NCBI RefSeq assembly: GCF_018223345.1
Contig: NZ_CP073587.1
Location: 3,098,001 to 3,162,000, forward strand
From: Shewanella yunxiaonensis
GTDB lineage: Bacteria > Pseudomonadota > Gammaproteobacteria > Enterobacterales > Shewanellaceae
Direction of reading: 5' to 3'
DNA: 64,000 nt
The stretch's first letter is position 1; every line of letters starts with the position of its first letter. Under the pieces are notes generated by a model. The model made no database searches and had not been told where the DNA came from. It was given only the letters and a program-made list of their open reading frames with translations. Shown in pieces: positions 12,087 through 54,196 of the stretch. The translations under genes were made by a program, and so were the position numbers.

Positions 12087-12098
12087 GACTGCCTCCGC

Positions 12099-13514: not shown

Positions 13515-13585
13515 GGCGCCTCCCTCAGTGATTACTGCCATTGTCTGAGCCGATTGTCGGACAGACCGGTGTCTGGGAGTGGTAG

Positions 13586-16563: not shown

Positions 16564-16637
16564 GACTCTTCTCCTGCCGTGCCACTAATCCGTGAACCCC
16601 GGCTCGGTTATCCGGGCTGAACATTGCTCAGCCTGTC

Positions 16638-33372: not shown

Positions 33373-34896
33373 ATGAAAACCCGACCACAGGTTCTGACCG
33401 TGTTGGCTGCAGCGATGGCAAGTGCGTTTGTTTGCCACACCGCAAATGCCACCGTTTTGCCGACTTCTCAGACACAAAGCAGTTGGTTCACCGCAGGCGC
33501 TGACGCAGTAGCCGCCAAGGTTGCCGAAGTTCGTAACACAGGCACCGCCAAAAACATTATTTTCTTTGTCGGTGACGGTATGGGAGTTTCCACGCTGACT
33601 GCTGCCCGCATCTATCAAGGGCAAATGGCAGGGCATACCGGTGAAGAAAATCGCCTGAGCTTTGAGAGCTTTCCATACAGTGCACTCTCAAAAACTTATT
33701 CCGTGAATCAGCAAACGCCGGATTCAGCGCCGACCATGACTGCGATGATCACCGGCGTAAAAACCGAAGATGGCATGCTGTCGGTTTCATCAGACTCTAT
33801 TCGCGGTAACTGCCTTTCCAGCAAAGGTAATGAACTGAAAACGGCACTGGAATTAGCAGAAGATCTGGGGAAATCCACCGGCGTTATCTCCACCGCCCGT
33901 ATCACTCACGCCACCCCGGCCGCTACTTATGCGCATACACCAGAGCGTGACTGGGAGGCCGATACCAATCTGACCAAAGAAGCTGTCGCCAATGGCTGTC
34001 ACGACATCGCTTACCAACTGGTGATGGATGCACCGGGAGACGGTCTGGAAGTCGCACTGGGTGGCGGCCGCAGTTATTTTCTGCCTAATACAGTGACCGA
34101 TGGCGAAGGCGCCAAAGGTCGCCGCGCCGATGGTAACGATCTGACTGCCGCCTGGAGTGAAAAATTCTCTAATGCGGTCTATGTCTGGAATAAAGAAGCG
34201 TTTGATGCGGTTGATACCAGTACCACGGACCATCTGCTTGGATTGTTTGAAGCTTCTCATATGCAGTATGAAGCGGATCGTGCCGACGATGTGGCTGGCG
34301 AACCGTCATTGGCCGAAATGACCAGCAAAGCCATCGATATTTTGGCGAAAAACGACAAGGGCTATTTCCTGATGGTAGAAGGTGGCCGTATTGACCACGC
34401 CCACCACGCTGGCAATGCTGCTCGCGCCCTGGAAGATACGGTTGCGTTGTCTGATGCTGTGCAGGCGGCAATGGATAAAGTCGATTTACAGAACACCCTG
34501 ATTATTGTCTCGGCTGACCACAGCCACACCTTTACCATTGCCGGTTATCCGGCCCGCGGCAATCCTATTCTCGGACTGGTGCATGAGCCGAATGATGAAA
34601 CCATCAGCACTGCGCCTTCGCTGGCGGCTGACGGTCTGCCTTATACCACACTCGGTTATGCCAATGGTCCGGGGGCCAAACAAGGCGCGCGTGAAGACCT
34701 CACCGCCGTAGATACCACGGATGTGGAATTTATGCAGCAAGCACAAGTGCCGCTGAGCAGCGAAACCCACGCCGCGGAAGATGTGGCCATTTACGCCACC
34801 GGTCCGGGGGCCTGGCTATTCCAGGGCAACGTTGAACAGAACGTCATTTTCCATGTCATGAACCAGGCGGGCGCTCTGGGTGGCAGCAAGTACTGA
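33373..34896 (+). CDS. Alkaline phosphatase, exported
   Basis: 507 residues from the ATG at 33373, with GAGG upstream; the longer frame is not used. The signal peptide ends in ANA. Catalytic landmarks are a metal-binding Asp in FFVGDGMGVSTLTAARIY, the nucleophile Ser in QTPDSAPTMTAMITGVKT, VEGGRIDHAHHAGNAA, SADHSHTF, and the late metal His in SSETHAAEDVAIYA. It hydrolyses phosphate monoesters in the periplasm. A closely similar paralogue starts 17 bases downstream, so the pair is a tandem duplication and operon. Confidence 0.93.
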   Translation: MKTRPQVLTVLAAAMASAFVCHTANATVLPTSQTQSSWFTAGADAVAAKVAEVRNTGTAKNIIFFVGDGMGVSTLTAARIYQGQMAGHTGEENRLSFESFPYSALSKTYSVNQQTPDSAPTMTAMITGVKTEDGMLSVSSDSIRGNCLSSKGNELKTALELAEDLGKSTGVISTARITHATPAATYAHTPERDWEADTNLTKEAVANGCHDIAYQLVMDAPGDGLEVALGGGRSYFLPNTVTDGEGAKGRRADGNDLTAAWSEKFSNAVYVWNKEAFDAVDTSTTDHLLGLFEASHMQYEADRADDVAGEPSLAEMTSKAIDILAKNDKGYFLMVEGGRIDHAHHAGNAARALEDTVALSDAVQAAMDKVDLQNTLIIVSADHSHTFTIAGYPARGNPILGLVHEPNDETISTAPSLAADGLPYTTLGYANGPGAKQGAREDLTAVDTTDVEFMQQAQVPLSSETHAAEDVAIYATGPGAWLFQGNVEQNVIFHVMNQAGALGGSKY

Positions 34897-34912
34897 TTTG
34901 AGGGATGCAAAA

Positions 34913-36544
34913 ATGAAATTGAAAGCAATTGTACTGGCCATGATGACCCTGTCTGCACTGACATTAGCGGGTTGTGGCAGCGATGGTGAAAAAGGGGCAA
35001 CTGGAGCAACAGGTGCTACCGGCGCCGATGGCAGTAATGGACAAGATGGTACTGATGGTCGTGATTATACCGCCGCCAACGAGTGGTTTATGGCGGGGCA
35101 GGATGCAGTCACTAAAGCCAGCGGCAACAGCATCAGTGACTCGGCTGGCAAAGCTAAAAACATCATCCTATTTGTGGGCGATGGTATGGGAATTTCTACG
35201 CTCACCGCCGCCCGTATCTATCAGGGCCAGCAGCAAGGCAAAAGCGGTGAAGAAAACCGCCTCAGCTTTGAAACCTTTCCCTATTCCGGACTGGTGAAAA
35301 CCTACTCTGCCAACCAGCAGACACCGGATTCCGCGCCAACCATGACGGCGATTGTCACCGGTGTCAAAACCAAAGATGGCATTATTTCAGTATCGGATGC
35401 CGCAGTGCGTGATCAGTGCAGTACCAGCACTGGCCATGAGGTGATGACCGCCCTGGAGCTAGCAGAAATTGCCGGCATGAGTACCGGGATCATTTCTACC
35501 GCACGCCTGACCCATGCGACACCGGCAGCGACCTACGCCCATTCAGTCGAGCGTAACTGGGAAGCTGACAGCGATATGCCGCAAGCGGCGTTGGATGCCG
35601 GCTGTAAGGATATCGCCTCACAACTGATTGATTTCCCTTATGGTGATGGTCCGGAAGTCGCGATGGGGGGCGGCCGTACCTACTTTATGCCGAATACCGA
35701 AACTGATCCTGAATATGGTCGGGCCGGTCGTCGCAATGATGGTCGGGATCTCACCACAGAGTGGACCAGCAAATACAGTGACGGCGCTTATGTGTGGAAT
35801 CGTGCCCAGTTTATGAGTGTCGATACCAACAGTGTTAAACATCTGCTCGGTCTGTTTGAAAACAGCCATATGCAGTATGAAGCAGACCGGGTCAACGGTG
35901 ATGGTGCCGGGGAGCCATCGCTGGCCGAAATGACCAGCCGCGCACTGGATATGCTGAAGCAAAACGACAGCGGCTATTTTCTGATGGTGGAAGGCGGCCG
36001 TATCGACCATGCGCACCATGCGGGTAACGCTGCGCGGGCGCTGGAAGACACGGTGGCATTGTCTGACGCGGTGCGCGTTGCCATCGAAAAAGCCGACAAA
36101 GACACGCTGATCCTGGTGACTGCAGACCACAGCCATGTGTTCACCATTGCCGGATATCCCGTGCGTGGTAATCCGATTCTCGGTCTGGTACGCGGTGTCG
36201 ATGCGAGTGGTGCTGCCGCGACAACCTACAGTACCGACAGCAACGGCATGCCATACACCACCTTAGGTTACGCCAATGGTCCTGGCTTTGGCTTCGGTAG
36301 CGCCGCGGTCAATACTGACAGCAACCGCCCCGATCTGAACCTGTATGCAGTGACCGACGTTGATTACCGTCAGGAAGCCACGGTGCCACTGGGCAGTGAA
36401 ACTCATGCGGGTGAAGATGTCGCCGTCTATGCCAAAGGGCCAGGCGCGCAACTGGTCACCGGTTCAGTGGAACAGAACATGTTATTCCATGTGATGAACT
36501 ATGCCGCCAATCTGGTGGGTCGTGCAGAAGCGGCACAAAACTAA
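34913..36544 (+). CDS. Alkaline phosphatase lipoprotein with collagen-like linker
   Basis: 543 residues. The signal has lipobox LTLAGC (lipidated C21). Residues about 25-49 are eight Gly-X-Y triplets (GEKGATGATG and on), a collagen-like spacer. The full phosphatase domain follows, with FVGDGMGISTLTAARIY, QTPDSAPTMTAIVTGVKT, VEGGRIDHAHHAGNAA, TADHSHVF and GSETHAGEDVAVYA. It is very similar to the upstream gene apart from the anchor and spacer, so the copies probably differ in location: free periplasmic against membrane-tethered. The ATG at 34913 follows GAGGG. Confidence 0.93.
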   Translation: MKLKAIVLAMMTLSALTLAGCGSDGEKGATGATGATGADGSNGQDGTDGRDYTAANEWFMAGQDAVTKASGNSISDSAGKAKNIILFVGDGMGISTLTAARIYQGQQQGKSGEENRLSFETFPYSGLVKTYSANQQTPDSAPTMTAIVTGVKTKDGIISVSDAAVRDQCSTSTGHEVMTALELAEIAGMSTGIISTARLTHATPAATYAHSVERNWEADSDMPQAALDAGCKDIASQLIDFPYGDGPEVAMGGGRTYFMPNTETDPEYGRAGRRNDGRDLTTEWTSKYSDGAYVWNRAQFMSVDTNSVKHLLGLFENSHMQYEADRVNGDGAGEPSLAEMTSRALDMLKQNDSGYFLMVEGGRIDHAHHAGNAARALEDTVALSDAVRVAIEKADKDTLILVTADHSHVFTIAGYPVRGNPILGLVRGVDASGAAATTYSTDSNGMPYTTLGYANGPGFGFGSAAVNTDSNRPDLNLYAVTDVDYRQEATVPLGSETHAGEDVAVYAKGPGAQLVTGSVEQNMLFHVMNYAANLVGRAEAAQN

Positions 36545-39604: not shown

Positions 39605-42600
39605 TTAGTGTGGCTGAGAACTGAAATAGCGCTGTTGGAATTGAGCCGCTGTCACCGGCTTAGAAAACAGGTAGCCCTGGAAATAGTCACAGTGCAGATT
39701 ACGCAGATAAGCCTTCTCTTCGATGGTTTCCACCCCTTCCGCGACCGTATGTAAGCCCATCGTGATGCTGAGTGAAATAATGGCGCTAACAATCCCTTGT
39801 TTCTTCGGATTATGATGAATATCGGTCACAAACGCTTTATCGATTTTCAATGTATCGATAGGAAAATCATACAGATAGGCAAGACTAGAATAGCCGGTAC
39901 CAAAATCATCAATCGAAATACTGACGCCGATGTGCTTTAACGCTCTTAAAGTATTGACGGTATAGTCCAGATCGCCCATCGCCACTCGTTCCGTCACCTC
40001 CAGTTCTAACCATTGCGCAGGCACCTGATAACGATCCAGCAGGTAGATAATCTCATCAACAAATTGTGGACGCTGAAACATCGGCAGAGACAGGTTGATG
40101 GCAATCGGGCATGGCGTAAAGCCTTGCTGCCGCCAATCACTGAGCTGACGGATGGCCGCCTCGAGCACCCAACGGTCGATCATGACAATCTGCCCGGATT
40201 CTTCGGCCAGAGGAATAAAATGCCCAGGTGCCAATTCACCCCGCTGCGGATGATACCAACGAACCAAGGCTTCAGCACCAATCAGGGTGTCGTCCTGAAT
40301 ATTCACCTTTGGCTGGAAATGCAGACATAACTCATTGTTATTAATCGCTAATGCGAGATCATGCTTGAGATTGAGTTTTTCCAGCGCATTAGTTTGCATA
40401 TCGGCGGAGAAAAATACATAGGTGCCACGCCCGGCACTTTTAGCACGGTACATCGCCGCATCGGCACTGCCTACCAGATGATCAATGGTGATGCCATCGG
40501 AAGGGGAAATGGCAATCCCGATACTGCAACCAATGTTGATCACTTTATCGCCCACTTTCACCGTTTTGCTCACTGTGGCTATCAGCGCTTGCGCCAACTC
40601 AATCGTGGCGACACTGTCGTAAGGCGTCAGTAACAGGAATTCATCGCCACTGAAACGAAACAGGGCATCATCGACATCAACCTGCTCTTGCAGACGTAGG
40701 GCAACGGCTTTGAGCACCTCATCACCAAACTGGTGCCCCATCGCGTCGTTCACATGTTTGAAATCATCCAAGTCGATGAACATCACCGCCAGTGAACGTC
40801 TGGTTTTTTCAGCCTGATTACTCATTTTAAAGAACACATCACTGAGCCTGTTGCGATTGGGCAGGCCGGTCAGGGTGTCAAAGTTAGTCAGTCGGCGGGC
40901 ATATTCTTCGGCCTGATGCTGACGCGTCACGTCTTCCATCACGCCAATAAGATGCTTAATTTCACCACGTTGATCCGTCACAGTAGAGATGGTGCCGCGC
41001 TGCAAATACAGTTCGCCATTTTTACGTTTGTTCCAGAACTCGCCGGACCAACTGCCTTTATCCAGTATGGATTGCCACATGTCACGATAGAACTCATCGG
41101 ACTGCTTTGAAGATTTCAGCAACCGCGGATTTTTGCCCATCACTTCATCCACAGTGAAGCCGGTGATCCGACAAAATGACGGGTTAACGTTAATGATGTT
41201 ACCTTCAGGATCGGTGATCACTATCGCTTCCTGGCTATATTCAAACGCTTCGTAGCCAAGTTGTAGCTTGATATGGTCATCTAAGGAGGTCAGCGCGAAG
41301 CTGATGTCTTTTACCAGGTCTTCAAACAACCGGTGGATATCATCATCAAAAATGGCTCCGCGACTGTCGAAAACCGTGAGCACACCGTGGATGTAACCAG
41401 AGCGATAGATAGGAAATGACACTACGGTGTTGTAATGGCAGTTCCAGTCGCAACCGCTGCAGCAACCGGTGTATTGCAAAGCACTGTAGCCGCTGCTGTC
41501 TAACACCCGATCCAGTTCTAGCGGAAATGCAGTGCCGCCATGAGTGCAATCATGTTCGGGATAGACATATCGCCAGTCAACGGCATAGGTATGTGGTTTC
41601 TCAGGTTGCCCGGTATAAGGTTGAAAGACGGTAATGCAGGTCTGCTCCAGCCCGATATCTTCGGTGATAATGCGACAGACTTTACTGAAAATTTCCTGCT
41701 CGGAGCTGTCAAAACCAATAAGATTCTGATTAACCGTGCTTAATGCTTCAAACATCTGGCGGCTACGACGACTGCGATTAAACGCCGCGACTTTTTCATT
41801 GATCAGCACGCACACGGCCAGTTTGACGCTAAACACGACAAAGATAAAAAATGCCAACAAGACAAAATCGTTTAAGCGGGATTCCAGCCCTTCATCTATC
41901 GCCGTCGTCTGCATTGACCACAATGCCACCAGCCCCACACTGCATAACACTAGGCTATTAAATCTGATAGAAAAGCTGACGGCATACAGAGCTAATATAA
42001 ACACCAGCAACAAGATTTGTAGCGGAAGTTTATGAGCAACAACAGGATAATGGCTAAATGTCCAGACAGAAATCACCAAAGCCAACGCCCAATAAAACCC
42101 GGCCTGAAGAGAATTGTCCTGCTTTGCATACCGGTCCGTCGGCATAAAAACACCGTAAACAAACAGCGGTGTAAATAATAAGGCCGATAAGCCAAGGTTG
42201 CAGATCCACCTCGACCATTTCAGTACATAGGCATCAACCCCGGCGACCGGCAACAATGCCGGGAGATGACTGACAATAAACGCTGGCAGGATCGCGCCAA
42301 CAAATAGCAGTTTCACCATGCCCTCAAAGGTGGAAAATCCTTGAAAGCTTTGGCTAAACATTTGTAGTAGCCAAGCCCCCAGCAATCCTTGGGCGACCAC
42401 AGTGATTGCCAGTATGACAGCCGCAGATAGGGGTTCATGATAAAAAGTGATGCTGGCGACGATGCTCAGCAAAGACACGCCAACAATGGGCCAGAAATCG
42501 TTAGGGACCGGTTTGGGTTTGACCACGCGCAACGCCAGAACCAACGCCCCTGCTGCATCAAAATGTACTAAGAAATGGGATTGTTGGAACAATAATCCCA

Positions 42601-42703
42601 ACGCTACGGTAAGCACGCCATAAGCAACAACAATAAGTAAACTGGTAAGCTGCGCCGAGCCGTCGCTTATTACTTTTAGTTGTGCCACTAATTGGCGAAT
42701 CAT
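39605..42703 (-). CDS. MASE1-GAF-PAS-GGDEF-EAL signalling protein
   Basis: 1032 residues. The MASE1-like membrane sensor (about eight segments) covers 20-300. A GAF domain (about 320-475) carries clustered cysteines (C386, C414, C415, C418, C422). The PAS domain is at about 488-595 (EAIVITDPEGNIINVNPSFCRITGF). The GGDEF domain (605-765) has FRFSGDEF in place of GGDEF, a variant found in active cyclases. The EAL domain is intact (GAEALVRWYHP, then DDFGTGYSSLAYL, IDKAFV). It probably makes or degrades cyclic di-GMP in response to an intracellular cue. AAGGATG lies just before the ATG. Single gene. Confidence 0.93.
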   Translation of the reverse strand: MIRQLVAQLKVISDGSAQLTSLLIVVAYGVLTVALGLLFQQSHFLVHFDAAGALVLALRVVKPKPVPNDFWPIVGVSLLSIVASITFYHEPLSAAVILAITVVAQGLLGAWLLQMFSQSFQGFSTFEGMVKLLFVGAILPAFIVSHLPALLPVAGVDAYVLKWSRWICNLGLSALLFTPLFVYGVFMPTDRYAKQDNSLQAGFYWALALVISVWTFSHYPVVAHKLPLQILLLVFILALYAVSFSIRFNSLVLCSVGLVALWSMQTTAIDEGLESRLNDFVLLAFFIFVVFSVKLAVCVLINEKVAAFNRSRRSRQMFEALSTVNQNLIGFDSSEQEIFSKVCRIITEDIGLEQTCITVFQPYTGQPEKPHTYAVDWRYVYPEHDCTHGGTAFPLELDRVLDSSGYSALQYTGCCSGCDWNCHYNTVVSFPIYRSGYIHGVLTVFDSRGAIFDDDIHRLFEDLVKDISFALTSLDDHIKLQLGYEAFEYSQEAIVITDPEGNIINVNPSFCRITGFTVDEVMGKNPRLLKSSKQSDEFYRDMWQSILDKGSWSGEFWNKRKNGELYLQRGTISTVTDQRGEIKHLIGVMEDVTRQHQAEEYARRLTNFDTLTGLPNRNRLSDVFFKMSNQAEKTRRSLAVMFIDLDDFKHVNDAMGHQFGDEVLKAVALRLQEQVDVDDALFRFSGDEFLLLTPYDSVATIELAQALIATVSKTVKVGDKVINIGCSIGIAISPSDGITIDHLVGSADAAMYRAKSAGRGTYVFFSADMQTNALEKLNLKHDLALAINNNELCLHFQPKVNIQDDTLIGAEALVRWYHPQRGELAPGHFIPLAEESGQIVMIDRWVLEAAIRQLSDWRQQGFTPCPIAINLSLPMFQRPQFVDEIIYLLDRYQVPAQWLELEVTERVAMGDLDYTVNTLRALKHIGVSISIDDFGTGYSSLAYLYDFPIDTLKIDKAFVTDIHHNPKKQGIVSAIISLSITMGLHTVAEGVETIEEKAYLRNLHCDYFQGYLFSKPVTAAQFQQRYFSSQPH

Positions 42704-43092
42704 AACGTCATCCTTAATCCTGCCAACAAATGCTTTGGCTACAACCCATTGTGATATGAACCGCTTAAACCCGACGCGCTAACTGCGAAGGTTGTTAATT
42801 CTATACCCGTAACAAATCCAGGGCATTAAATGAGTAGGTTAACATCTTGATTGAATATTAACCACGGATAATATTTAACCAAGATCAAACATTTACGTTT
42901 CTTTATAAACGCTACCGATGTTTGACCGCAACCACACAGGTAACGCAACCGACGAATACCCAACATGATGCAACACCTCTATCGTATAAGTATTCCGAGG
43001 TAAGCACTGACCTCAGTCAAGCCATAAGCTCAGATCTGCAAGCAAGCTCACACTCAGTTACCTTGACAGCATCGCTGATTTCCATAGCATAT

Positions 43093-43116
43093 CGTTATAT
43101 ATTTTTTTATATATCG
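43093..43116 (+). promoter_or_regulatory. ModE box upstream of the binding-protein operon
   Basis: CGTTATATA-TTTTTT-TATATATCG, preceded by AT and followed by AAT. This fits the molybdenum-box pattern ATCGNTATATA-N6-TATATANCGAT, with only the position after CG differing between arms. It ends 21 bases before the ATG at 43138, so bound ModE would block transcription. The other bases of 42704-43137 contain no supported gene. Confidence 0.82.
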
Positions 43117-43137
43117 AATTTTCCAGGATTTTAAGAT

Positions 43138-44166
43138 ATGGATATGCAGCGCCGCATGTTGCTACAGGGACTGATGGCCAGTGGCACCCTCGCAGCATGG
43201 CCGCAATTAGCGATGGCAGATACCCCTTTGGTATTGCCCTTCGGTAAAATCCCCGCCCCGACTGACGTACGCAAGGTGCTGAGTGCTGGCGCACCAGCAG
43301 ATATGCTATTGCTGGCCCTGGCACCGCAACACCTGCAAGGGTTCTCCAGTTTCAGCCTACAGCAGGATTTTCCCTGGTTTAGCCAGTCAGTGCGTGGATT
43401 ACCCAAGCTCGGTCGACTTGCAGGGCGAGCCAGTACACTGTCGCTGGAACAACTATTGGCGCTAAAACCGGATATCATTGTCGACTGTGGTGACGTTACC
43501 AATACATTTCGTTCAGTGGCCCAAAGAACCGTCGCTCAGACCGGCATTCCTTACGTGTTAGTCAGTGGTCAATTGACCGACTCACCAGCGCAACTGACAC
43601 AAACCGGAGCCCTGCTGGGGGTTGAAGCCACCGCGGCACAATTGGCAAGTATGGCTAAGCAGATCCTGAGTGATGCCAAAAATTTTGCCGCCAATACGGG
43701 TAAAAATATTCGCTTTTATGCCGCTCGCGGTGCCCGAGGTTTAGAAACCGGCCTTGCTGGCTCCTTACACACCGAAGCGATTGAGCTACTGGGATTACGC
43801 AATGTCGCCGAAGTCAGTGGCCGTAACGGGCTTGCCCAAGTATCGATGGAACAACTGCTACTGTGGCAACCCGATCTGATCATCACGCAGGACATCACGA
43901 CGTGGCAGCACATTACACAGTCGCCGCAGTGGCAAGGCGTTCGAGCCGTCAAACAGCAACAAGTGTTGTGTTATCAGCGCTTCCCTTTTGGCTGGTTGGA
44001 TGCACCGCCAGGTGTCAATCGTTTACTGGGACTTAGAAGACTCCAGGCGCATTTGGATAGCCGCTTGAGGCCTACTTTTAAGACTGACATGCAGCAGTTT
44101 TTTCAGACGTTTTTTCACAGCAGTCTGAGCGATGATGACTATCGCATACTGGTACCGGCAATATGA
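43138..44166 (+). CDS. Periplasmic metal/oxyanion-binding protein of a FecCD-type ABC transporter
   Basis: 342 residues. A twin-arginine-like signal (QRRMLLQGLMASGTLAAW) ends at AMA. The mature protein has the helical-backbone type III binding protein fold, with LAPQHLQGFS, LEQLLALKPDIIVDCGD and LLLWQPDLIITQDITTW. Such proteins bind siderophores, B12 or, in the MolA group, molybdate and tungstate. The ModE box directly upstream favours molybdenum. The stop overlaps the permease start by four bases (ATGA). Confidence 0.88.
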   Translation: MDMQRRMLLQGLMASGTLAAWPQLAMADTPLVLPFGKIPAPTDVRKVLSAGAPADMLLLALAPQHLQGFSSFSLQQDFPWFSQSVRGLPKLGRLAGRASTLSLEQLLALKPDIIVDCGDVTNTFRSVAQRTVAQTGIPYVLVSGQLTDSPAQLTQTGALLGVEATAAQLASMAKQILSDAKNFAANTGKNIRFYAARGARGLETGLAGSLHTEAIELLGLRNVAEVSGRNGLAQVSMEQLLLWQPDLIITQDITTWQHITQSPQWQGVRAVKQQQVLCYQRFPFGWLDAPPGVNRLLGLRRLQAHLDSRLRPTFKTDMQQFFQTFFHSSLSDDDYRILVPAI

Positions 44167-45146
44167 AGTATTGGTCTGCAGCCGTTGTCTGCACATTACT
44201 GCTAATAGCGATGGTGTTCGCGCTGACGTCTGGGAAATATCCGTTAAATCTTGCTGACATTGGTCACTTGTTGATTGACAACAAGACCGCCGATCCCCAG
44301 TTATCCATTGTATTCTGGCAGATCCGGATGCCAAGAATGCTGGCAGCGGTAATGATTGGCGCCGGGTTAGCCGCGGCCGGGACCGCCTATCAGGGAATGT
44401 TCCGTAATCCGTTAGTATCACCGGATATTTTGGGAGTCGCGGCTGGCGCGGGAATGGGCGCCAGTGTGGCAATTTTGCTCGGATTATCAATGTTATTGAT
44501 TCAATCATTGGCATTTGCTGGCGGATTACTGGTGGTCGGACTGGTCTGCGTTATCGCGCGCTTTACCCGGCGCCAAGACCCAGTGTTATCACTGGTGTTA
44601 ATCGGCATTGCGGTTGGCACCGTGTGCAGCGCCATGATCTCCCTGATCAAAGTGCTGGCTGACCCTTATACCGAATTACCGTCAATCACCTTTTGGCTGC
44701 TCGGGGGATTAAACAGCATTACCTTGAGCGATTTAAAAATCGCCGCACCGCTGACGTTACTTGGCATACTCCCGCTATGGTTGCTGCGCTGGCGCATGAA
44801 CTTGCTGAGTCTGCCAGATGAAGAAGCCAGCGCCTTGGGCGTTAACGTTGTACGTCTGCGAGCAGTTTTCATTATCAGTGCCACGCTTATCACCGCCAGT
44901 GCGGTTGCTATTGCTGGCATCATCGGCTGGGTCGGGTTAGTCATACCGCATATTTGCCGCATGCTCACCGGGGCCAATAATCAACGATTACTGCCGATGG
45001 CGATGGCAACCGGCGCAATTTTGCTTTTGGTAACAGACACGCTGGCACGTACTGTCAGTGCGGTAGAATTGCCGCTTGGCATATTGACGGCGCTGATCGG
45101 TGCACCGTTCTTTCTGTTATTGCTGATGCGGAGAGAACGGCTGTGA
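44163..45146 (+). CDS. FecCD-type ABC permease
   Basis: 327 residues with about ten membrane helices. Family landmarks are FWQIRMPRMLAAVMIGAGLAAAGTAYQGMFRNPLVSPDILG and IAGIIGWVGLVIPHICRMLTG near the coupling helix, then ELPLGILTALIGAPFFLLLL. The fold is shared by iron-siderophore, B12 and MolB molybdate transporters. It is flanked by four-base overlaps with the binding protein and the ATPase genes, so the three are strictly co-expressed. Confidence 0.93.
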   Translation: MKYWSAAVVCTLLLIAMVFALTSGKYPLNLADIGHLLIDNKTADPQLSIVFWQIRMPRMLAAVMIGAGLAAAGTAYQGMFRNPLVSPDILGVAAGAGMGASVAILLGLSMLLIQSLAFAGGLLVVGLVCVIARFTRRQDPVLSLVLIGIAVGTVCSAMISLIKVLADPYTELPSITFWLLGGLNSITLSDLKIAAPLTLLGILPLWLLRWRMNLLSLPDEEASALGVNVVRLRAVFIISATLITASAVAIAGIIGWVGLVIPHICRMLTGANNQRLLPMAMATGAILLLVTDTLARTVSAVELPLGILTALIGAPFFLLLLMRRERL

Positions 45147-45898
45147 CACTGGTGCAATTTGAAAACACTGCGGTGGGTTACCCACAACATCCGGTACTGC
45201 AACAGCTCTCTTTTACGATTGCACAAGGTGAAGTTTGCTGTCTGCTCGGCGCCAATGGTTGTGGCAAAACCACATTAATTCGCAGTTTGTTGGGCCGATT
45301 ACCCTTGCGTGGCGGCAATATTTTGTTGCAGCAACGCGCGATAAAAGCATGGCGTAGTGAAGATCTGGCGAAATGGATGGCCTATGTGCCACAGGCGCAT
45401 GATGGTCCATTTACCTTTAGTGTTTTGGACATGGTATTGATGGGACGCAGTATACATCTGCCGTTGTTTTCCTCACCATCGGCAAAAGATCGACGATTGG
45501 CGCTGGAGTTATTGGACAATCTGGGGATCTATCACCTCGCGGCACGATTATATCCGTCACTTAGCGGTGGCGAGCGGCAGTTAGTGCTGATTGCCAGAGC
45601 ACTGTTACAACAGCCGAAATTACTGGTGATGGATGAACCAGCGGCCAGTCTCGACTTCGGCCACCAGATCAAGTTACTGGAAAAAATCCGCCAGCTGAAA
45701 AGTACTGGAATGACCTTGTTGATGTCGACCCATCATCCGTTACACGCCAGAGCAATTGCTGACCGGGTTGTGCTACTGTCAAAGCACGAGGGCGCACGAC
45801 AAGGCAGTGCTGCGGCCATGCTCACAGGACAAAAACTGGCAGCACTCTATGATGTACAGGAAGCGGATATCAGACATCACCTGGGAATCGAAATTTAA
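45143..45898 (+). CDS. ABC transporter ATPase
   Basis: 251 residues. Walker A GANGCGKTT, Q-loop YVPQAHDGPF, signature LSGGERQ, Walker B LLVMDEPAASLD and switch His in MSTHHP are all intact. It belongs to the FepC/BtuD/MolC group. It starts inside the permease stop (four-base overlap), and the methyltransferase gene starts 20 bases after its stop. Confidence 0.93.
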   Translation: MTLVQFENTAVGYPQHPVLQQLSFTIAQGEVCCLLGANGCGKTTLIRSLLGRLPLRGGNILLQQRAIKAWRSEDLAKWMAYVPQAHDGPFTFSVLDMVLMGRSIHLPLFSSPSAKDRRLALELLDNLGIYHLAARLYPSLSGGERQLVLIARALLQQPKLLVMDEPAASLDFGHQIKLLEKIRQLKSTGMTLLMSTHHPLHARAIADRVVLLSKHEGARQGSAAAMLTGQKLAALYDVQEADIRHHLGIEI

Positions 45899-45917
45899 GC
45901 CTATAAGGAATCAGTCA

Positions 45918-46727
45918 ATGATACTGGACGAGTTAAACTTTGCCGAACTTTACCGGCAACAGATGCAGCAGGCAGGCCGCACCACTAAAGCGCCGGAACA
46001 CTGGGATGCCCGAGCTGAAAAAATGGCAGAAGTGTGTGCTAATCCGCAGGATCCTTATCTGGTACAACTACAAAGCAAAATTGATCTGCGAAATGCCAGC
46101 ACCCTGTTGGATATGGGTTGTGGCCCCGGCTCAGTCTGTCTCAATTTAGCGGGCTCACTCACCCGGGTTTGGGGCGTCGATTACAGCCGAGGGATGTTGG
46201 AAGTAGCCGGAAGACGAGCCGCAGCCATGGGCTTACAAAACGTTACCCTGCTCAATAAATCCTGGGAAGATGACTGGACAGAGATCCCCGAATGCGACAT
46301 TGCAGTTGCATCGCGCTCAACGCTGGTTGCCGATCTGCAGCAAGCGCTGATCAAACTCAATAATAAAGCCCGATTGCGCGTTTATACCACTCATACGGTA
46401 GCCACATCGTTTGTCGATGTGGCGGTGCAACGTGCAGTGGGTCGCCCGGTCGTTGAACTACCTAACTATATTTTCGCTGTTAACATTTTATATCAACTGG
46501 GGATCCATCCTAAGGTTGATTATATCCGTGGCCCCAACTGCCAAAATAAAACAGAAAGCTTTGAACAGTTTTCAGAATCCGTCAGTTGGTCATTGGGAAC
46601 TCTCGACGACACAGAATTACAACGCCTGTTTGATTTTTACCAACAGAAAAAACGTATGGGGCAAGTGATTGTTCCGCCATCCCGTGACTGGGCATTGGTT
46701 TACTGGGACAAAACCCAAACACTGTAA
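45918..46727 (+). CDS. Class I SAM-dependent methyltransferase linked to the transporter
   Basis: 269 residues from the ATG at 45918 (MILDELNFAELYRQQM), with ATAAGGAAT upstream; the longer frame would overlap the ATPase gene. Motif I LLDMGCGPGSVCLNLA, motif II-like VWGVDYSRGML, and NVTLLNKSWEDDW. The sequence suggests a small-molecule substrate. In this setting it could modify a metallophore or a cofactor, but nothing in the sequence identifies the target. It shares the ModE-controlled operon with the transporter. Confidence 0.85.
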   Translation: MILDELNFAELYRQQMQQAGRTTKAPEHWDARAEKMAEVCANPQDPYLVQLQSKIDLRNASTLLDMGCGPGSVCLNLAGSLTRVWGVDYSRGMLEVAGRRAAAMGLQNVTLLNKSWEDDWTEIPECDIAVASRSTLVADLQQALIKLNNKARLRVYTTHTVATSFVDVAVQRAVGRPVVELPNYIFAVNILYQLGIHPKVDYIRGPNCQNKTESFEQFSESVSWSLGTLDDTELQRLFDFYQQKKRMGQVIVPPSRDWALVYWDKTQTL

Positions 46728-46740
46728 CTTAGCGAATATC

Positions 46741-46762
46741 AGGCTTACCTGACGGTAAGCCT
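46741..46762 (+). terminator. Stem-loop after the methyltransferase gene
   Basis: 9-bp stem AGGCTTACC / GGTAAGCCT with a four-base loop, 14 bases after the stop, followed by TTCTG. It is a weak terminator or attenuator between the transporter operon and the receptor gene. Confidence 0.6.
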
Positions 46763-46859
46763 TTCTGACGGTGCAATGATCCCCAATTGCTACCGATAAC
46801 CACCGCCTTTCAGCCATTCTGACAGGCAGCGAATTACTGCCAAATTTTGGCATAGTCAT

Positions 46860-46883
46860 CGATATATACTAATTTATATATCG
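46860..46883 (+). promoter_or_regulatory. ModE box upstream of the TonB receptor gene
   Basis: CGATATATA-CTAATT-TATATATCG is a perfect 9+9 palindrome with a six-base spacer. It matches the molybdenum-box core on both arms and is preceded by AT. It ends 15 bases before the ATG at 46899. Its spacing, flank (CGAATTT) and position copy the site before the binding-protein gene. Confidence 0.85.
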
Positions 46884-46898
46884 AATTTGAGGTTCAAC

Positions 46899-48872
46899 AT
46901 GATATTGAAAAAACTCTCACTGCTCATGATCATCGCAATATCAGGGCAACATTATGCTCAGGCAGATGAGCCATCAGACACCGAACGTCTCACTATCTGG
47001 GGTAGTCAGGTTGCCGATAGCAGCGACGCTATTGATCAACAAACATTGGAACAGTTAGGAAAGACCAATGTTGCGCAGGCACTCAGTGTTATCCCCGGTG
47101 TATCGTTGCAAAAATCCGGTAGCCGGAATGAACTCCAAGTCAGAGTACGTGGTTTTGATAGTCGCCAGGTGCCGGTATTTTACGATGGGATCCCGATTTA
47201 TGTGCCTTATGATGGCAACCTTGATCTGGGACGTTTTCTGTCATCCAATCTTGATTCCATTGAGGTTTCCAAAGGTTATACCTCACTGCTCCAGGGGCCC
47301 AACCAGATGGGTGGGGCGATTAATTTAACGACCCATAAACCACAGGCGCCATTTGAAGCCAGTGCGGCGTATCGCCAAGGGTTTACCCGCAATAGCAGCA
47401 ATGCCTATGACGCAGATTTATCCCTCGGTATGCGAAGCGATCTGGGTTACTTGCAGTTTACCGGCAGTCAGCTGAAACAGGACTATCTTGGATTGCCATA
47501 CGGCACCAATAATGATGTCGCCGGTACCGATGGCAAACTTATCAACTCTGCGGCAAACGATAAACGCGGCGTCATCAAATTAGGTATTACCCCGAATGCT
47601 AACGATGAATACACCTTTACCTATATAAAGCAGGATGGCCAAAAAAATAACCCACCCTATGCCGGGACCTCAGATCAGTCGTCTCGCTACTGGCAGTGGC
47701 CGGACTATGATAAAGACAGTTATTACTATCAGGGGCTTACACAGATAGGTGACATCTTCACCCTCAAAAGCCGGCTATACCATGATGTTTTTGCCAATAC
47801 GCTGATGATGTACAACTCACTTTCAGCACTGGAAAAGAAAAGCGGCTATTACAGTCGTTATGATGATTTCAGCAATGGCGCAGCCCTGCAACTAAGCGCT
47901 GATATGCGCCAGCGTGATCAACTATCGTTTGCGGCGCACTGGAAAGAAGATGTCCATCGTGAAAAAGACGCCCCGGATGCACTATATGATCGTTATAAGG
48001 ATCGTACGATCTCGCTAGCCGCTGAATACCAATGGGCAATATCAACGCAGTTTGATGCGGTTGCGGGCATCAGCTATGACAAACGCCAAAGCCTTGAAGG
48101 GATGCAGCATGAAAATGACGGCAGTATCACCCAGTATGATGACAACGATCAGCATGCATTTAACTGGCAAGGGCTGCTCAAATACCATGTGAATGACAGC
48201 GATGCGCTGACAGTGTCCTTATCAGATCGTAGCCGTTTCCCCACACTTAAAGAACGGTACACCACATCAAAACCTGCAACTGGACAAGTGGCACTGGTAA
48301 ATCCGCAGCTAAAACCAGAACGTGCACGGGCATTGGATATCACTTACAACGGCTTGTTTAATTCGCAATGGAGCTATGAGGCAAGTGCTTATTACAACCG
48401 CGTCGATGATGCCATTCTTGCCATCAATATTGACGCAGACACGGTACAAAATCGCAACAGTGGCCGCGTAGATTACCGCGGCGTAGATTTAGGCATCTCA
48501 GGACATGTAAGCACATATGCTCAAATGGGACTGAGCTATAGCTATACCCATGCCGATGTTAAACGCCAAGAGCTTGGTGAAATCACCGGATTACCCGAAC
48601 AGATGGGAAATGCCTGGGTCAAACTGACGCCTTGGGATCCCTTGAGCCTGACCGTATCCGAAGAGATCCGCTCATCAAGCTATAGTGATAGTGACGGCTC
48701 ACAAATTGCTGCGGGATTTGCAGTGACCAATCTGCGCGCTGACTATCAGTTGCTGCCACGACTCAGTCTGAATACTTCAGTAAATAACCTGTTTGACCGT
48801 AGTTATGAATATGCCGAAGGTTTTATCGAGCAAGGTCGTAACTTTTGGCTAGGCGTGGAATACCACTTGTAA
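46899..48872 (+). CDS. TonB-dependent receptor, predicted molybdenum-regulated
   Basis: 657 residues from the ATG at 46899. Signal peptide (MILKKLSLLMIIAISGQHYAQA). The plug domain has the TonB-box-like ERLTIWGSQ, VAQALSVIPGVSLQKSGSRNELQVRVRGFDSRQVPVFYDGIPIY and LQGPNQMGGAINLTTHKP. The barrel ends NFWLGVEYHL. By similarity alone one would call it a siderophore receptor. The ModE box and the neighbouring ABC system argue for import of a molybdenum compound. It has its own promoter region and a strong terminator behind it. Confidence 0.9.
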   Translation: MILKKLSLLMIIAISGQHYAQADEPSDTERLTIWGSQVADSSDAIDQQTLEQLGKTNVAQALSVIPGVSLQKSGSRNELQVRVRGFDSRQVPVFYDGIPIYVPYDGNLDLGRFLSSNLDSIEVSKGYTSLLQGPNQMGGAINLTTHKPQAPFEASAAYRQGFTRNSSNAYDADLSLGMRSDLGYLQFTGSQLKQDYLGLPYGTNNDVAGTDGKLINSAANDKRGVIKLGITPNANDEYTFTYIKQDGQKNNPPYAGTSDQSSRYWQWPDYDKDSYYYQGLTQIGDIFTLKSRLYHDVFANTLMMYNSLSALEKKSGYYSRYDDFSNGAALQLSADMRQRDQLSFAAHWKEDVHREKDAPDALYDRYKDRTISLAAEYQWAISTQFDAVAGISYDKRQSLEGMQHENDGSITQYDDNDQHAFNWQGLLKYHVNDSDALTVSLSDRSRFPTLKERYTTSKPATGQVALVNPQLKPERARALDITYNGLFNSQWSYEASAYYNRVDDAILAINIDADTVQNRNSGRVDYRGVDLGISGHVSTYAQMGLSYSYTHADVKRQELGEITGLPEQMGNAWVKLTPWDPLSLTVSEEIRSSSYSDSDGSQIAAGFAVTNLRADYQLLPRLSLNTSVNNLFDRSYEYAEGFIEQGRNFWLGVEYHL

Positions 48873-48931
48873 AGCATATGGGTTGTAGCACAGCAGCCTG
48901 TTACCTCGTCTGATCCTCTGTGCAAGCAAAA

Positions 48932-48965
48932 GCCGGTGATTACTGGTCATAATCACCGGCTTTTT
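48932..48965. terminator. Bidirectional terminator between the receptor and S9 peptidase genes
   Basis: Perfect 11-bp stem GCCGGTGATTA / TAATCACCGGC (48932-48942 and 48950-48960) with TTTTT on the plus side and AAAA on the other. It serves the plus-strand receptor gene and the minus-strand peptidase gene, which converge here. Confidence 0.92.
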
Positions 48966-48986: not shown

Positions 48987-50897
48987 TTATTGTGCGAAAC
49001 CGCACTTATTATCCAGCCATCCCAACAACTCTCGATACAAGGTCTGCTTATGATCATAGAACAGGGTATCAGAGAAATGATCGGCATCTTTCAGTTCAAC
49101 ATAGCGATAATCTTTATGGTACTGCTTCAGTTTATCGACAAAATCATGGCTGTGTTTGATGGGGACCCGGCTATCGATATCGCCGTGGATCACTAAGATA
49201 GGTACATTGACTTTATCGACCTGCTCTACCGGAGAAACCCCTTTCACCGTGGGCTGCTGCAACATACTCAGAAAACGATTGTCATTCAGTACCGCATTCA
49301 AACGGTTTAAGTCGCTGACACCAGCCCCAGCAATGGAACATTGGTAAATATTATTTTCCCGCATAGCGCTGACAAATGCCGCATAACCACCATAACTCCA
49401 GCCAAACATCGCGAGTTTTGACTTGTCAGCCAGCCCTTTATTGATCAAATACTGGGCAGCGTCATCAAGATCATCCTGCATCTTTAGACCCCAGTTTTTA
49501 TCACCGGCTTTCCAGTAATCTAAACCGTATCCCGTTGACCCGCGGTAATTTGGCTGGATCACCAGATAGCCGTGATGGGCTAACAGTTGTGACCACTCAT
49601 CAAACACCACTACATCGCGCACCCAAGGCCCACCATGTGGCAACACAACCGTTGGATATGGCGCTTTGCCAGTTTTAGGTATCGTCACGTAAGCGTATAT
49701 TTTGCGGCCATCTCTGGCGCTATAAGAAATATATTTTACATCAGACAGTTCTGAGGGTTGCAGCGAAGGCCGGGTCGGCCCGATTTTTTGCAGCGATTTT
49801 TTATCAAGCAGCAGATAATATTCACCAGGATTTGTCGCTGATTGTGCGAATAGCACCAGCACGCCATCATCATCGCTGCGACTGACAATACGCACTACCT
49901 GTTCTGGGAACAACTGAGTCAACGCATCGTTTACGCCTTGGTCATAATCAGTGAGAAAATAACTTTCCGGATATTTATTGGTGTAGGTAAATGCCACCAG
50001 CTGGTGTTGCCGATTGAAACGCGCGCCATCCACATCCACATTCTGCAAACCAAACTGTCGTTCTGAATACTTTCCGGTAATTAGGTCATAACTATAGATC
50101 CCTGACTTGTCTTCACCGTGGTTCATATTGATGTACAGCAAATTAGGATTTTTATTATCAAACCCCAACACCTCAAACGTTTCACGATCGGTAGGCAGGT
50201 TTTTTTTCAATAACATCCAGTCTTCACTACCTTTTTTTCTGGCGTAAATATCGATGCTACTGTCTGCCAAATCAAATCCTTGGCCGATCCTGACGTCACC
50301 GTCATTATCCGTCATGAAGCCACCGTTAATTTTATCAGAACCGCGCACAACAATTGAGGTTCTGCCGTTGGTGACATCTAGCTTGATCACATCCGGGATT
50401 CGATTGTTATTGGCATCACCATAAATCAGGATGTTATCTTTATCCTGTGGCAACAGGTCGAGAATTTGGAAACCGCCCCGGCTACTGTTGGAAAAAGGCA
50501 CAAGCCAGTCACCGTGACCATCGGCATCCGTAAACGCATATTTACTGACCCAAGATTTATGGGCACCATCTTCGAGTAGTTGTCGAAAAGCAACGGCGAT
50601 TTTTTTGTTATTTACCCAAATTACGCCGGAGACCAACATCTTGCTGGCACCCAGTACAACCGGCTTTTTGGCAAGATCATGGGCATCGTATATCTCAATG
50701 ACATAGTCACCATTTTTGGAAGTTGCGCGGACTACCGCAACTTTGCTGCCATCCGCAGCAACGCTAACTGAGCGAATAAATGGCAACGACGCAAAACTGT
50801 CTATTTCATTGTTAACGTCCGTGTGTTCCGCAGAAAAAACGTTTGTACCGAAGCATAATCCCAAACATGCTACGACCAATACATTCATCAATTTCAT
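48987..50897 (-). CDS. S9-family (prolyl oligopeptidase-like) peptidase
   Basis: 636 residues with a signal peptide (MKLMNVLVVACLGLCFGTNVFSA). The N-terminal beta-propeller covers about 30-370. The C-terminal alpha/beta hydrolase has the nucleophile in GWSYGGYAAF, the Asp in HGDIDSRVPI and the His in DADHFSD. It cleaves oligopeptides in the periplasm. It lies 65 bases downstream of a large TonB receptor gene in the same direction, so the two may form a peptide uptake-and-digestion unit. Confidence 0.92.
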   Translation of the reverse strand: MKLMNVLVVACLGLCFGTNVFSAEHTDVNNEIDSFASLPFIRSVSVAADGSKVAVVRATSKNGDYVIEIYDAHDLAKKPVVLGASKMLVSGVIWVNNKKIAVAFRQLLEDGAHKSWVSKYAFTDADGHGDWLVPFSNSSRGGFQILDLLPQDKDNILIYGDANNNRIPDVIKLDVTNGRTSIVVRGSDKINGGFMTDNDGDVRIGQGFDLADSSIDIYARKKGSEDWMLLKKNLPTDRETFEVLGFDNKNPNLLYINMNHGEDKSGIYSYDLITGKYSERQFGLQNVDVDGARFNRQHQLVAFTYTNKYPESYFLTDYDQGVNDALTQLFPEQVVRIVSRSDDDGVLVLFAQSATNPGEYYLLLDKKSLQKIGPTRPSLQPSELSDVKYISYSARDGRKIYAYVTIPKTGKAPYPTVVLPHGGPWVRDVVVFDEWSQLLAHHGYLVIQPNYRGSTGYGLDYWKAGDKNWGLKMQDDLDDAAQYLINKGLADKSKLAMFGWSYGGYAAFVSAMRENNIYQCSIAGAGVSDLNRLNAVLNDNRFLSMLQQPTVKGVSPVEQVDKVNVPILVIHGDIDSRVPIKHSHDFVDKLKQYHKDYRYVELKDADHFSDTLFYDHKQTLYRELLGWLDNKCGFAQ

Positions 50898-50962: not shown

Positions 50963-53900
50963 TTAGAATTTAGCGCTTACGTTCAGGAACATCGTACGTG
51001 GTTCAGCATAACCGACACCTAAAGGAATGTTGGTATTGGCCGAAGTGACATAACCATCAACTTTCGGTGGACGTTTGTTAAATACGTTACGAACCCCCAA
51101 GTTAACTGAGTAGTTATCCCACTCGTAACCAACTGACATGCTGTGTACCCAGTAGTTGGTGGTATAACCTAATGGACGGCACAACAGTGGTGAACCATCA
51201 TCGTTGTACATACCGGTACAACCAACGGTATTAGCCTCAAAGTCGTATTGATACTCATCGTCTTCACGTCCTTTACCGATAAAGCGTGTTTGCCAGTTCA
51301 GGAAGAAGTCGTTGTACTTAATGCTCAATAACGCATTACCACGCCATTCTGGATAAGCTGGCTCACCGACATAGTCGTTAACAGTACCCAGAACGTCATA
51401 AGTGGCATCGGTCATCTTGGTGGCGGTCATGTCCAAGGTGACTTCCATACTGTTCTGGAACAGCACCAAGTCCTGCTTATAGAAGAGGTTGAAGTCAAAA
51501 CCTTTAGACGTAATCAGACCAATATTGATGAAGCTGGTGTCAATCAATGACAAGGTACCATCATCGCCACGAGTCAAACGATCACAAAATGCGGCATTAC
51601 CATTAGAGGAATAACATTGGCCAATACTGTAACTGGCAGAAGGCTCTGCAATACTGCTAGTCACTTCAATATCAAAGCGAGTTGCAGACAATGTCAGCTC
51701 AAAAGCATCGGTAAATGGCTGTTCAAACACAATCCCGTAAGTTTTGGCCACAGAAGTTTCTGGATCCAACTCTTCACTACCACCACTGGCGGCTTCTACG
51801 CTATAGGAGCTACTGAAGGAGTTTTCGCCGTTTTGGCCTAAGCCTAAGGTTGTTGGGTCAACACCAGCGGCATAACAACGCTCTAATACGGCTGGATCAC
51901 GCTCATCAAGTGATGCGTCGTAAGTAGCTGGAGTATTAGGATTTAATGGATCGGCCACCCGAGCATCAGCAGGTACCACACAGGGGTCGGTCACAGTGTT
52001 GAAACCAGACTGTCCATTAAGGAAGTGCTCACGTAAGTTAGGCGCTCGGTAAGATGTACCTTTGGTTCCTCGAATAGTCAACCATTCAACAGGACGGTAT
52101 ACCGCTTTTAAGCTGTAGGTTTTGGCCGCACTGTAATAAGTTTCCTTAGAGATACGCCCTGATGCGGTAAAGGTCAGTTCCTCTACGCCAGGAACACCTT
52201 TCACCAAAGGGAACTCCAGTTCGGTGAACGCTTCACGCAGGATACGTGAACCGTCAGCACCAGCATCTGAATAGAAGCCCCACAACAGGCCATCCGCTGC
52301 GACATCATTGGGATTGGAAGTAATTTCATCACGACGCCATTCCACACCAAAAATAGAGGCAACACCTTCGTTATTCCAAGGCAACTGGAATAAATCACCG
52401 CCAATGTAACCGTTAACAACGGTCTGGTTAACCTTAGTTTCCATGCGACGGTCAACCATCAGGTAATTATATTCCGCATCGGTCAGCGTACCTCCACCCG
52501 CCTGATAAATGTTATCTGCAAACAGATTTACTGGCACACATCCATCAGATCCATCGCCACAAGTGATTGAACCATCATCATTCAACACACTGGTATACAA
52601 TGAATTCAGCAAGCGTTCTTCACTGATCCCGGTCATATTGTTAGTACCTTTAGAGGCACTGTAAGAAACATAAGCATCGTAATACCAGTTTTCTAAACCG
52701 ATATTATCCAGTAGTTTCAGGTCACCAGTGGCGCCCAATACGGTGCGATACTGCGAGACTTCAACATCTGAGCGGTCACGATCGCCCCGGATATTAATGA
52801 TGGGTCGCGCCCACACTGGGCCCCAATCCACCCCAACCGCATTCATACAGTTAATACCATTGGTACCACAAGGGTTGTATGGGTTAGTGTCTGGCACCCA
52901 TTCAAAAATCTGCGCACCTGGGCCGAACTGTGGCGATTTACGCTTGGCATACAAGCCTTCGTAGTAAATCGTGGTATTGCTATCATCCTGGAGGTTATAT
53001 TCGCCATTCAGCATGATTGAAAAACGCTTATTACGACTCTTATAATCACCTGATTTATAGTAATCAGACTGCTGATAAGCATATAACGGATCTTCGAAGT
53101 CAACGTCGGTATAGCCATCGCCATTGCCATCTACAATTGCCCGATCTGGAATACCATCGCCATTTGAGTCAGCCATTATCCAAGTAGGCAGATAGCCTGC
53201 ATAAGCGGTAGGGACGTTACTCTCTGAGAAATTTGGAACCCCCACGTTGGTATACCCTGGGGTGTAATACAGACTGCCAAAGAAGTTATCAAACTGTACC
53301 CGGTTAGTCAGAGGATAAATTTCACAAGTATCCACGTCGCCACGCGCCGTTGGCCCATAACCACTGGCACGGGTAATTCTGCGACCGTCTTGAGTTTCCC
53401 AAATACGCTCTTCGCAACCATTAGTAAAATCATTGCCAGCATATGACATAGCTTTCTGGTCATGGTATTCAGCACCGACAGTGACAAAACCATTATCAAA
53501 GGTTTTACCCCACATACCAGACAAAACATACTCTTCACCGCCATCACCTTTTGGTTGGGCATAACCCGCAGTGAAATCAAAACCTTCAACGTCTTTCTTC
53601 AGAATAACGTTGGCAACACCGGCAACAGCATCTGAACCATAGATAGTCGATGCACCATCAAAGAGGTTTTCAATACGCTGGATCATCACCCCAGGGATCA
53701 AATTAAGATCGGGAGCAGTAGGCGCCCCACCGACCCCAGCGGGAGCCATACGGCGACCATTGATCATCACCAGTGTACGTTCGGCACCAAGACCTCGGAA
53801 ACCGATAGTTGACGACCCAGGACCATTATCTGTGACATATCCACCAAAGGTATTGTCTATCTGTACCCCAGAAGCCTGACTGGTAGTCTGCAACATTGAG

Positions 53901-54196
53901 GTCGCATCAAACATCCCCAAATCTCGCGAAATATCCCCGTCGATCACCTGAACTGGTGATGCTTGGGAAAATTCTGCTTTACGAATTCGAGTACCAGTGA
54001 CGATGAGCTTTTCAATATTCTCTTCATCTTCCAGTGTCGCTGTTTTGGCCTGAACATCTTCCTTTAAAACAGGTCGTTCGATCTTTTTAGATGTTTCTGC
54101 ATCACCCTGATCGGCGGCAACTGCATACACTGAGGTTACGTATCCCAACATCAATGCATATCGAATTGTCGTCGCAATTATGTTTTTCCTAAACAT
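50963..54196 (-). CDS. Large TonB-dependent receptor
   Basis: 1077 residues. Signal peptide at the N-terminus, a TonB-box-like IEKLIVTGTRIRKAEF, a plug with RGLGAERTLVMINGRRMAPAGVGG and FDGASTIYGSDAVAGVANVILKKD, then a long barrel ending RTMFLNVSAKF. The NGRRMAP and DLNLIP pattern is that of the large receptors of Shewanella and Alteromonas that take up peptides or glycans. The downstream S9 peptidase favours peptides. No regulator gene is adjacent. Confidence 0.92.
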   Translation of the reverse strand: MFRKNIIATTIRYALMLGYVTSVYAVAADQGDAETSKKIERPVLKEDVQAKTATLEDEENIEKLIVTGTRIRKAEFSQASPVQVIDGDISRDLGMFDATSMLQTTSQASGVQIDNTFGGYVTDNGPGSSTIGFRGLGAERTLVMINGRRMAPAGVGGAPTAPDLNLIPGVMIQRIENLFDGASTIYGSDAVAGVANVILKKDVEGFDFTAGYAQPKGDGGEEYVLSGMWGKTFDNGFVTVGAEYHDQKAMSYAGNDFTNGCEERIWETQDGRRITRASGYGPTARGDVDTCEIYPLTNRVQFDNFFGSLYYTPGYTNVGVPNFSESNVPTAYAGYLPTWIMADSNGDGIPDRAIVDGNGDGYTDVDFEDPLYAYQQSDYYKSGDYKSRNKRFSIMLNGEYNLQDDSNTTIYYEGLYAKRKSPQFGPGAQIFEWVPDTNPYNPCGTNGINCMNAVGVDWGPVWARPIINIRGDRDRSDVEVSQYRTVLGATGDLKLLDNIGLENWYYDAYVSYSASKGTNNMTGISEERLLNSLYTSVLNDDGSITCGDGSDGCVPVNLFADNIYQAGGGTLTDAEYNYLMVDRRMETKVNQTVVNGYIGGDLFQLPWNNEGVASIFGVEWRRDEITSNPNDVAADGLLWGFYSDAGADGSRILREAFTELEFPLVKGVPGVEELTFTASGRISKETYYSAAKTYSLKAVYRPVEWLTIRGTKGTSYRAPNLREHFLNGQSGFNTVTDPCVVPADARVADPLNPNTPATYDASLDERDPAVLERCYAAGVDPTTLGLGQNGENSFSSSYSVEAASGGSEELDPETSVAKTYGIVFEQPFTDAFELTLSATRFDIEVTSSIAEPSASYSIGQCYSSNGNAAFCDRLTRGDDGTLSLIDTSFINIGLITSKGFDFNLFYKQDLVLFQNSMEVTLDMTATKMTDATYDVLGTVNDYVGEPAYPEWRGNALLSIKYNDFFLNWQTRFIGKGREDDEYQYDFEANTVGCTGMYNDDGSPLLCRPLGYTTNYWVHSMSVGYEWDNYSVNLGVRNVFNKRPPKVDGYVTSANTNIPLGVGYAEPRTMFLNVSAKF

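Follow-up and report, generated by a model that had tools for sequence, protein, structure and literature searches.

Two transcription units of Shewanella yunxiaonensis, found within a 64-kb stretch of its chromosome (hereafter the window), probably encode a ModE-repressed system for the acquisition of molybdenum, or tungsten, that extends from the outer to the inner membrane. Because ModE control sites precede genes that are labeled as iron uptake, the cluster is most likely a molybdenum importer. An earlier note on this DNA had proposed ModE-repressed molybdenum uptake. The ModE half of that proposal stands, on the strength of the boxes, a modE gene, and conservation across species, and molybdenum as the cargo is the best inference. 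ModE control reveals the signal that the cell uses; it is not proof of what the receptor carries.

The five genes of the cluster lie on the plus strand. A MolA-like substrate-binding protein of the Peripla_BP_2 family (molA, 43138-44166; assigned by Pfam, profile, and fold model) is followed by a FecCD-family permease (molB, 44163-45146; assigned by Pfam, with Haemophilus HI1471, or MolB, as its nearest solved relative), a MolC/FepC-like ABC ATPase (molC, 45143-45898; Pfam ABC_tran), and a class I SAM-dependent methyltransferase (45918-46727; Pfam and fold model). The gene for a TonB-dependent outer-membrane receptor, an ortholog of E. coli PrrA with a plug (PF07715) and a barrel (PF00593), occupies 46899-48872. 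In the gap between the methyltransferase and receptor genes sits a strong plus-strand hairpin (46741-46762; z -4.7 for 46728-46800), which has no T run and is a possible attenuator or terminator. A second plus-strand hairpin (48928-48964), which resembles an intrinsic terminator, would close the transcription unit. Among the NCBIfam families shown, none reaches its cut-off for any of the five proteins, and an Rfam scan of the 64-kb window gave no match. As for Ton energizers, the genome holds two ExbD genes. A true modD is absent from it; the single match is under the cut-off and is probably NadC.

Several other genes of the window deserve mention. Divergent from the cluster and upstream of it, 39605-42703 encodes a 1032-aa protein whose translation suggests PAS, GGDEF, and EAL-like domains and a membrane region. 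Translations likewise point to a second, unrelated large TonB-dependent-receptor-like gene (50963-54196, 1077 aa) and, adjoining it, a prolyl-oligopeptidase-like gene (48987-50897). Two neighboring genes at 33289-36544 are weakly similar to alkaline phosphatase, under the cut-off.

The starting point of the earlier note was a pair of 24-base palindromes, and their positions, their distances of 15-21 bases from start codons, and their shared CGAATTT flank were all confirmed. Mo-box 1 (43093-43116; CGTTATATATTTTTTTATATATCG, that is, CGTTATATA-TTTTTT-TATATATCG) lies 21 bases before the ATG at 43138, and Mo-box 2 (46860-46883; CGATATATACTAATTTATATATCG, that is, CGATATATA-CTAATT-TATATATCG) lies 15 bases before the ATG at 46899. 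Neither box is assigned a strand, both match the full motif perfectly, and their arms pair at 8/9 and 9/9 positions, respectively. The corresponding consensus of the E. coli ModE regulon has been published as ATCGNTATATA-N6-TATATANCGAT (PMC545781). Just upstream of Mo-box 1, ending 2 bases before it, is a putative sigma-70-like promoter on the plus strand (TTGACA-N16-TAGCAT, 43063-43090; 10/12 consensus positions). The number of sigma-70-like promoters in this region is not above that in shuffles, and the call is only suggestive; if it is right, a repressor bound at Mo-box 1 would cover the transcription start.

We searched the whole genome, a single contig of 3,812,587 bases (3.81 Mb), for the full motif CGNTATATA-N6-TATATANCG, which has 16 positions, allowing up to 3 mismatches. 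Three sites are perfect: the two in the window and a third at 73413-73436, in the intergenic region between the divergent modE and modABC. Under a first-order Markov model of the window, 7e-6 perfect sites would be expected per 64 kb and 0.0004 per genome. We rejected a chance origin of the window palindromes because three perfect sites far exceed this expectation and because the boxes at related loci all precede cluster genes. No site in the genome differs from the full motif at one or two positions. Nine sites have three mismatches, compared to 26 for a reversed-pattern control, and we therefore do not count them as further ModE targets. Used alone, the bare 12-base core is unexceptional genome-wide (5 sites at ≤1 mismatch, compared to 15 for the reversed pattern); unlike this short core, the full 16-position motif stands out from chance.

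ModE control also presupposes a modE gene, and the search of the genome found one above the cut-off, together with a modABC operon bearing the same box. The modE gene, at 72.5-73.3 kb, scores 104.8 bits against TIGR00637, and its ORF also carries a TOBE domain (49 bits). Across the genomes that host related clusters, modE is above the cut-off in 48/52. Of the other four, two come near the cut-off, and two, both draft assemblies, gave no modE.

To collect these relatives, we searched with an alignment of three receptors, which yielded more than 50 named genomes; a search of genome contigs with the binding protein alone yielded no loci. Mo-boxes proved to be conserved before the orthologous operons, a point that the earlier note had set as a test; the species number more than 50 and belong to several families. 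A box with ≤3 mismatches occurs within 200 bp before molA in 55/56 clusters (shuffles, 0.34%), the one box-less exception being locus L041, and a box with ≤2 mismatches occurs there in 47/56 (shuffles, 0). Within 1.15 Mb of sequence, 75 boxes have ≤2 mismatches, and every one of them is upstream of molA, the receptor gene, or the methyltransferase gene, at a distance of ≤250 bp. No box lies upstream of molB or molC in the clusters examined, and the methyltransferase gene is preceded by one in a single cluster (L058), where it has become the intact gene nearest to the box. A second box stands before the receptor gene in 29/57 clusters; the median gap before the receptor is 161 bp with this box and 36 bp without it. 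Fur boxes are not enriched upstream, with a median of 8 mismatches for the best 19-mer matches in 56-57 clusters and likewise for shuffles, and iron control of the cluster was rejected on these grounds. Judged from this sequence evidence, we consider it nearly certain that ModE controls the cluster.

The cluster is spread across the order Enterobacterales, being found in Shewanella, Serratia, Enterobacter, Citrobacter, Klebsiella, Raoultella, Escherichia, Yokenella, Pectobacterium, Erwinia, Pantoea, Morganella, Providencia, and Proteus, with the gene order molA-molB-molC-methyltransferase-(modD)-receptor. The Shewanella receptor is 62-66% identical to the enteric members, and the binding protein is rare, being found in 5/296 genomes of the order. 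Every cluster with a close receptor has the methyltransferase (57/57), and 46/57 have modD, whose product is a relative of quinolinate-phosphoribosyltransferase. A MOSC-domain gene, found in 9/57 clusters, stands at the cluster end in several species.

Two unusual arrangements show that the parts of the cluster are separable. In Intestinirhabdus (L058:2785-6564), most or all of molABC has been lost, and the Mo-box lies directly before methyltransferase-modD-receptor. At L034, the methyltransferase gene adjoins molABC, and a receptor ortholog is absent beside the cluster. The first of these is a natural deletion, useful for separating the roles of the components; it may hint that the methyltransferase and ModD make the ligand or that ModABC takes over. 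The second hints at a processing role for the methyltransferase.

More distant receptor homologs, at 28-38% identity, adjoin modE (L105-L107), modABC (L105), and molABC (L107, L109, L110). A homolog on a Pseudomonas plasmid (47% identity) has a Mo-box, and its neighbors encode a molybdopterin-domain protein, MoaA, and NarGHJI. Another neighbor on this plasmid was considered as a ModA-like protein and rejected, as Pfam identifies it as an amino-acid-type binding protein. Alphaproteobacterial homologs (~31% identity) are mixed, some lying by MolABC-like genes and others not.

We made several further observations at such loci. DUF2478 genes adjoin distant receptor homologs (L109:11809-12357, L115:15486-15998), once with glp (moeA-like) nearby, and DUF2478 may be a molybdenum-related family. 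At L108:4307-10989, a distant receptor gene with a Mo-box is followed by genes for an extracellular binding protein, a di-haem oxidoreductase, and a member of the sulfate-permease family; the Azospirillum locus L117 has a similar gene set. In a Pasteurellaceae-like genome (L033:1860-10547), Mo-box-like sites accompany two FecCD-type clusters, and molC is followed by a gene for an 801-aa TonB receptor that is not orthologous and that has a box-like site too. The same regulon may here have taken on a different receptor.

The E. coli counterpart is the prrA-modD-yc73-fepC cluster (ECs1693-ECs1699, O-island 55), for which iron uptake has been proposed or called possible (PMC1890555; PMC12928451). 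It is present in 2,102/5,426 complete E. coli genomes (~39%), including Nissle 1917 and ATCC 25922. As read in ATCC 25922, it lies between treA and ymgE, where E. coli K-12 has ycgY and not the cluster, and a perfect Mo-box stands a short distance upstream of the gene for the binding protein. At ≥90% identity, 2,098 E. coli genomes carry the 121-base promoter stretch, and the E. coli ModD scores 504 bits to TIGR01334.

The earlier note had further tied the cluster to the nitrogenase encoded in the same window, a link that we reject. The Mo-nitrogenase genes (nifDK, 14992-18104; nifEN, 10716-13541) lie ~25 kb from the cluster, and ISAs1 (21747-22880) and IS5 (25804-26727) transposase genes intervene. 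Proteus, Providencia, Citrobacter, and E. coli are mostly or wholly non-diazotrophic. Since the cluster is kept in non-diazotrophs and transposases separate it from nif, a dedicated tie is unsupported. Imported molybdenum would serve molybdoenzymes generally, which in S. yunxiaonensis would include nitrogenase.

The resemblance to Haemophilus MolABC was upheld. Among solved permeases, HI1471/MolB is the best match (230 bits, compared to 174 for the next), and MolA is one of the solved proteins nearest to the binding protein, nearer than BtuF and heme binders. By fold, the binding-protein model (pLDDT 88.7) is clearly nearest to 4PAG (Z 30.1, rmsd 2.9, 305 residues); MolA (Z 23.4, rmsd 3.2, 288 residues) ranks fourth, tied with 4HN9 and 4OVK. 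By profile, MolA ranks third with 74.7 bits, and BtuF scores ~40. The fold resemblance does not reveal the cargo. The fold modeled for the methyltransferase (pLDDT 89.7) is the common class I type, with many ties, and indicates no substrate. The binding protein of Shewanella begins with a twin-arginine-type signal (MDMQRRMLLQ, 43138-43230), and a twin-arginine motif is present in 19/21 of the orthologs with an N terminus (L032-L110). Twin-arginine signals are unusual for ABC binding proteins, and the protein may be exported folded.

From the known behavior of ModE, we would expect ModE-oxyanion dimers to cover both promoters at high cytoplasmic levels of molybdate or tungstate and this block to be lifted when molybdenum is scarce. 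Going by the protein families, the receptor would then use TonB-ExbBD energy to bring a molybdenum ligand across the outer membrane, more likely complexed or polymeric molybdenum than free MoO4, and the Tat-type exported binding protein would pass this ligand to a FecCD-type MolB2C2 importer. More speculatively, the methyltransferase, and ModD with it in most species, might act on the organic part of the ligand in the cytoplasm, in the service of either metal release or chelator synthesis. We rate the chance that a dedicated molybdophore is involved as even.

Four other explanations were weighed against molybdenum uptake as we propose it. The first, which overlaps with our explanation and is a sub-case of molybdenum uptake, is a dual-use catecholate system, in which catechol siderophores carry both molybdenum and iron and ModE tunes the molybdenum role. 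The receptor family resembles siderophore receptors, Azotobacter catechols bind molybdate, and the methyltransferase model resembles UbiG, a catechol-type O-methyltransferase, in a tie with many others. However, the cluster has neither catechol biosynthesis genes nor a Fur box, and it occurs in Proteus and Providencia, which to our knowledge do not have typical catechol siderophores. We regard this explanation as possible but rather unlikely.

The cargo could instead be an organic Moco-related compound (a pterin, molybdopterin, or a breakdown product), with the methyltransferase and ModD acting in its salvage. Most clusters have no pterin-handling gene, and the MOSC-domain gene, which ends the cluster in several species and would fit such a role, is limited to 9/57. 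We consider this very unlikely, even though a large organic ligand would be in keeping with the BtuCD-like fold of the importer and the methyltransferase and ModD outlast the loss of molABC in L058.

Iron-siderophore or heme uptake, as annotated in E. coli, would make the AT-rich palindromes incidental. By Pfam and NCBIfam family, the parts do belong with iron systems, and the named NCBIfam families that score highest for the receptor are those of heme and siderophore receptors, none of them passing its cut-off. The literature on the E. coli cluster also proposes iron uptake (PMC1890555; PMC12928451). Against this, Fur-box matches are no better than those of shuffles, whereas Mo-boxes are near-universal and all precede cluster genes, and the neighbors include modD, modE, and modABC, leaving iron uptake highly improbable. 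Finally, tungsten as the physiological cargo is scarcely credible, for although ModE responds to tungstate too, the hosts (aerobic or facultative enterics and Shewanella) use molybdenum enzymes, and the window encodes a Mo-nitrogenase.

Returning to ModE-repressed molybdenum uptake, our search of the open-licence literature brought up no previous description of a TonB receptor that is controlled by ModE or specific for molybdenum; the 2003 paper on Mo-boxes by Studholme and Pau may contain a relevant prediction. In its fullest form, our proposal is that this is the first TonB-dependent outer-membrane transporter for molybdenum, that a molybdophore is made or degraded by the methyltransferase and ModD, and that the E. 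coli "iron" cluster is a molybdenum scavenger, a combination that we think has an equal chance of being right or wrong. If true, molybdenum would join iron, cobalamin, copper, and lanthanides as TonB-driven cargo, and molybdate entry could no longer be assumed to occur solely by porin diffusion. The cluster, filed under iron in pathogenic and probiotic E. coli, is carried by ~39% of complete E. coli genomes; studies of virulence and colonization in which it is counted toward iron uptake would have to be revised, and in the gut the cells could plausibly benefit from molybdenum provided to nitrate enzymes and other enzymes of respiration. The puzzling ModD family would gain a set of conserved partners and a system in which to test its role.

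The cluster can be compared with several known systems. E. coli prrA-modD-yc73-fepC consists of orthologous genes in the same order, but has modD and one box, whereas the Shewanella cluster has two boxes and no modD. The E. coli ModE-modABC regulon shares the Mo-box consensus, and the same box stands at modABC of S. yunxiaonensis; the difference is that the Shewanella sites precede an outer-membrane receptor operon. MolABC of H. influenzae (HI1470-1472), which handles free molybdate, likewise combines a FecCD-type permease with a Peripla_BP_2 binding protein. It differs in having no known TonB receptor or methyltransferase, in that the Shewanella signal is Tat-like, and in that MolA is not the nearest solved binding protein, 4PAG being nearer. 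The catechol molybdophores of Azotobacter, azotochelin and protochelin, are similar in being organic molybdenum complexes imported under molybdenum need, but the Shewanella cluster lacks chelator biosynthesis genes, and we know of no dedicated ModE-controlled receptor in the Azotobacter system. TonB-dependent uptake of non-iron cargo is established for cobalamin (BtuB), copper (OprC), and lanthanides. Although the metal and the regulator differ, and the Shewanella receptor scores under the BtuB and copper-receptor NCBIfam cut-offs, these systems share with the Shewanella cluster the logic of a receptor combined with a periplasmic component and an inner-membrane importer.
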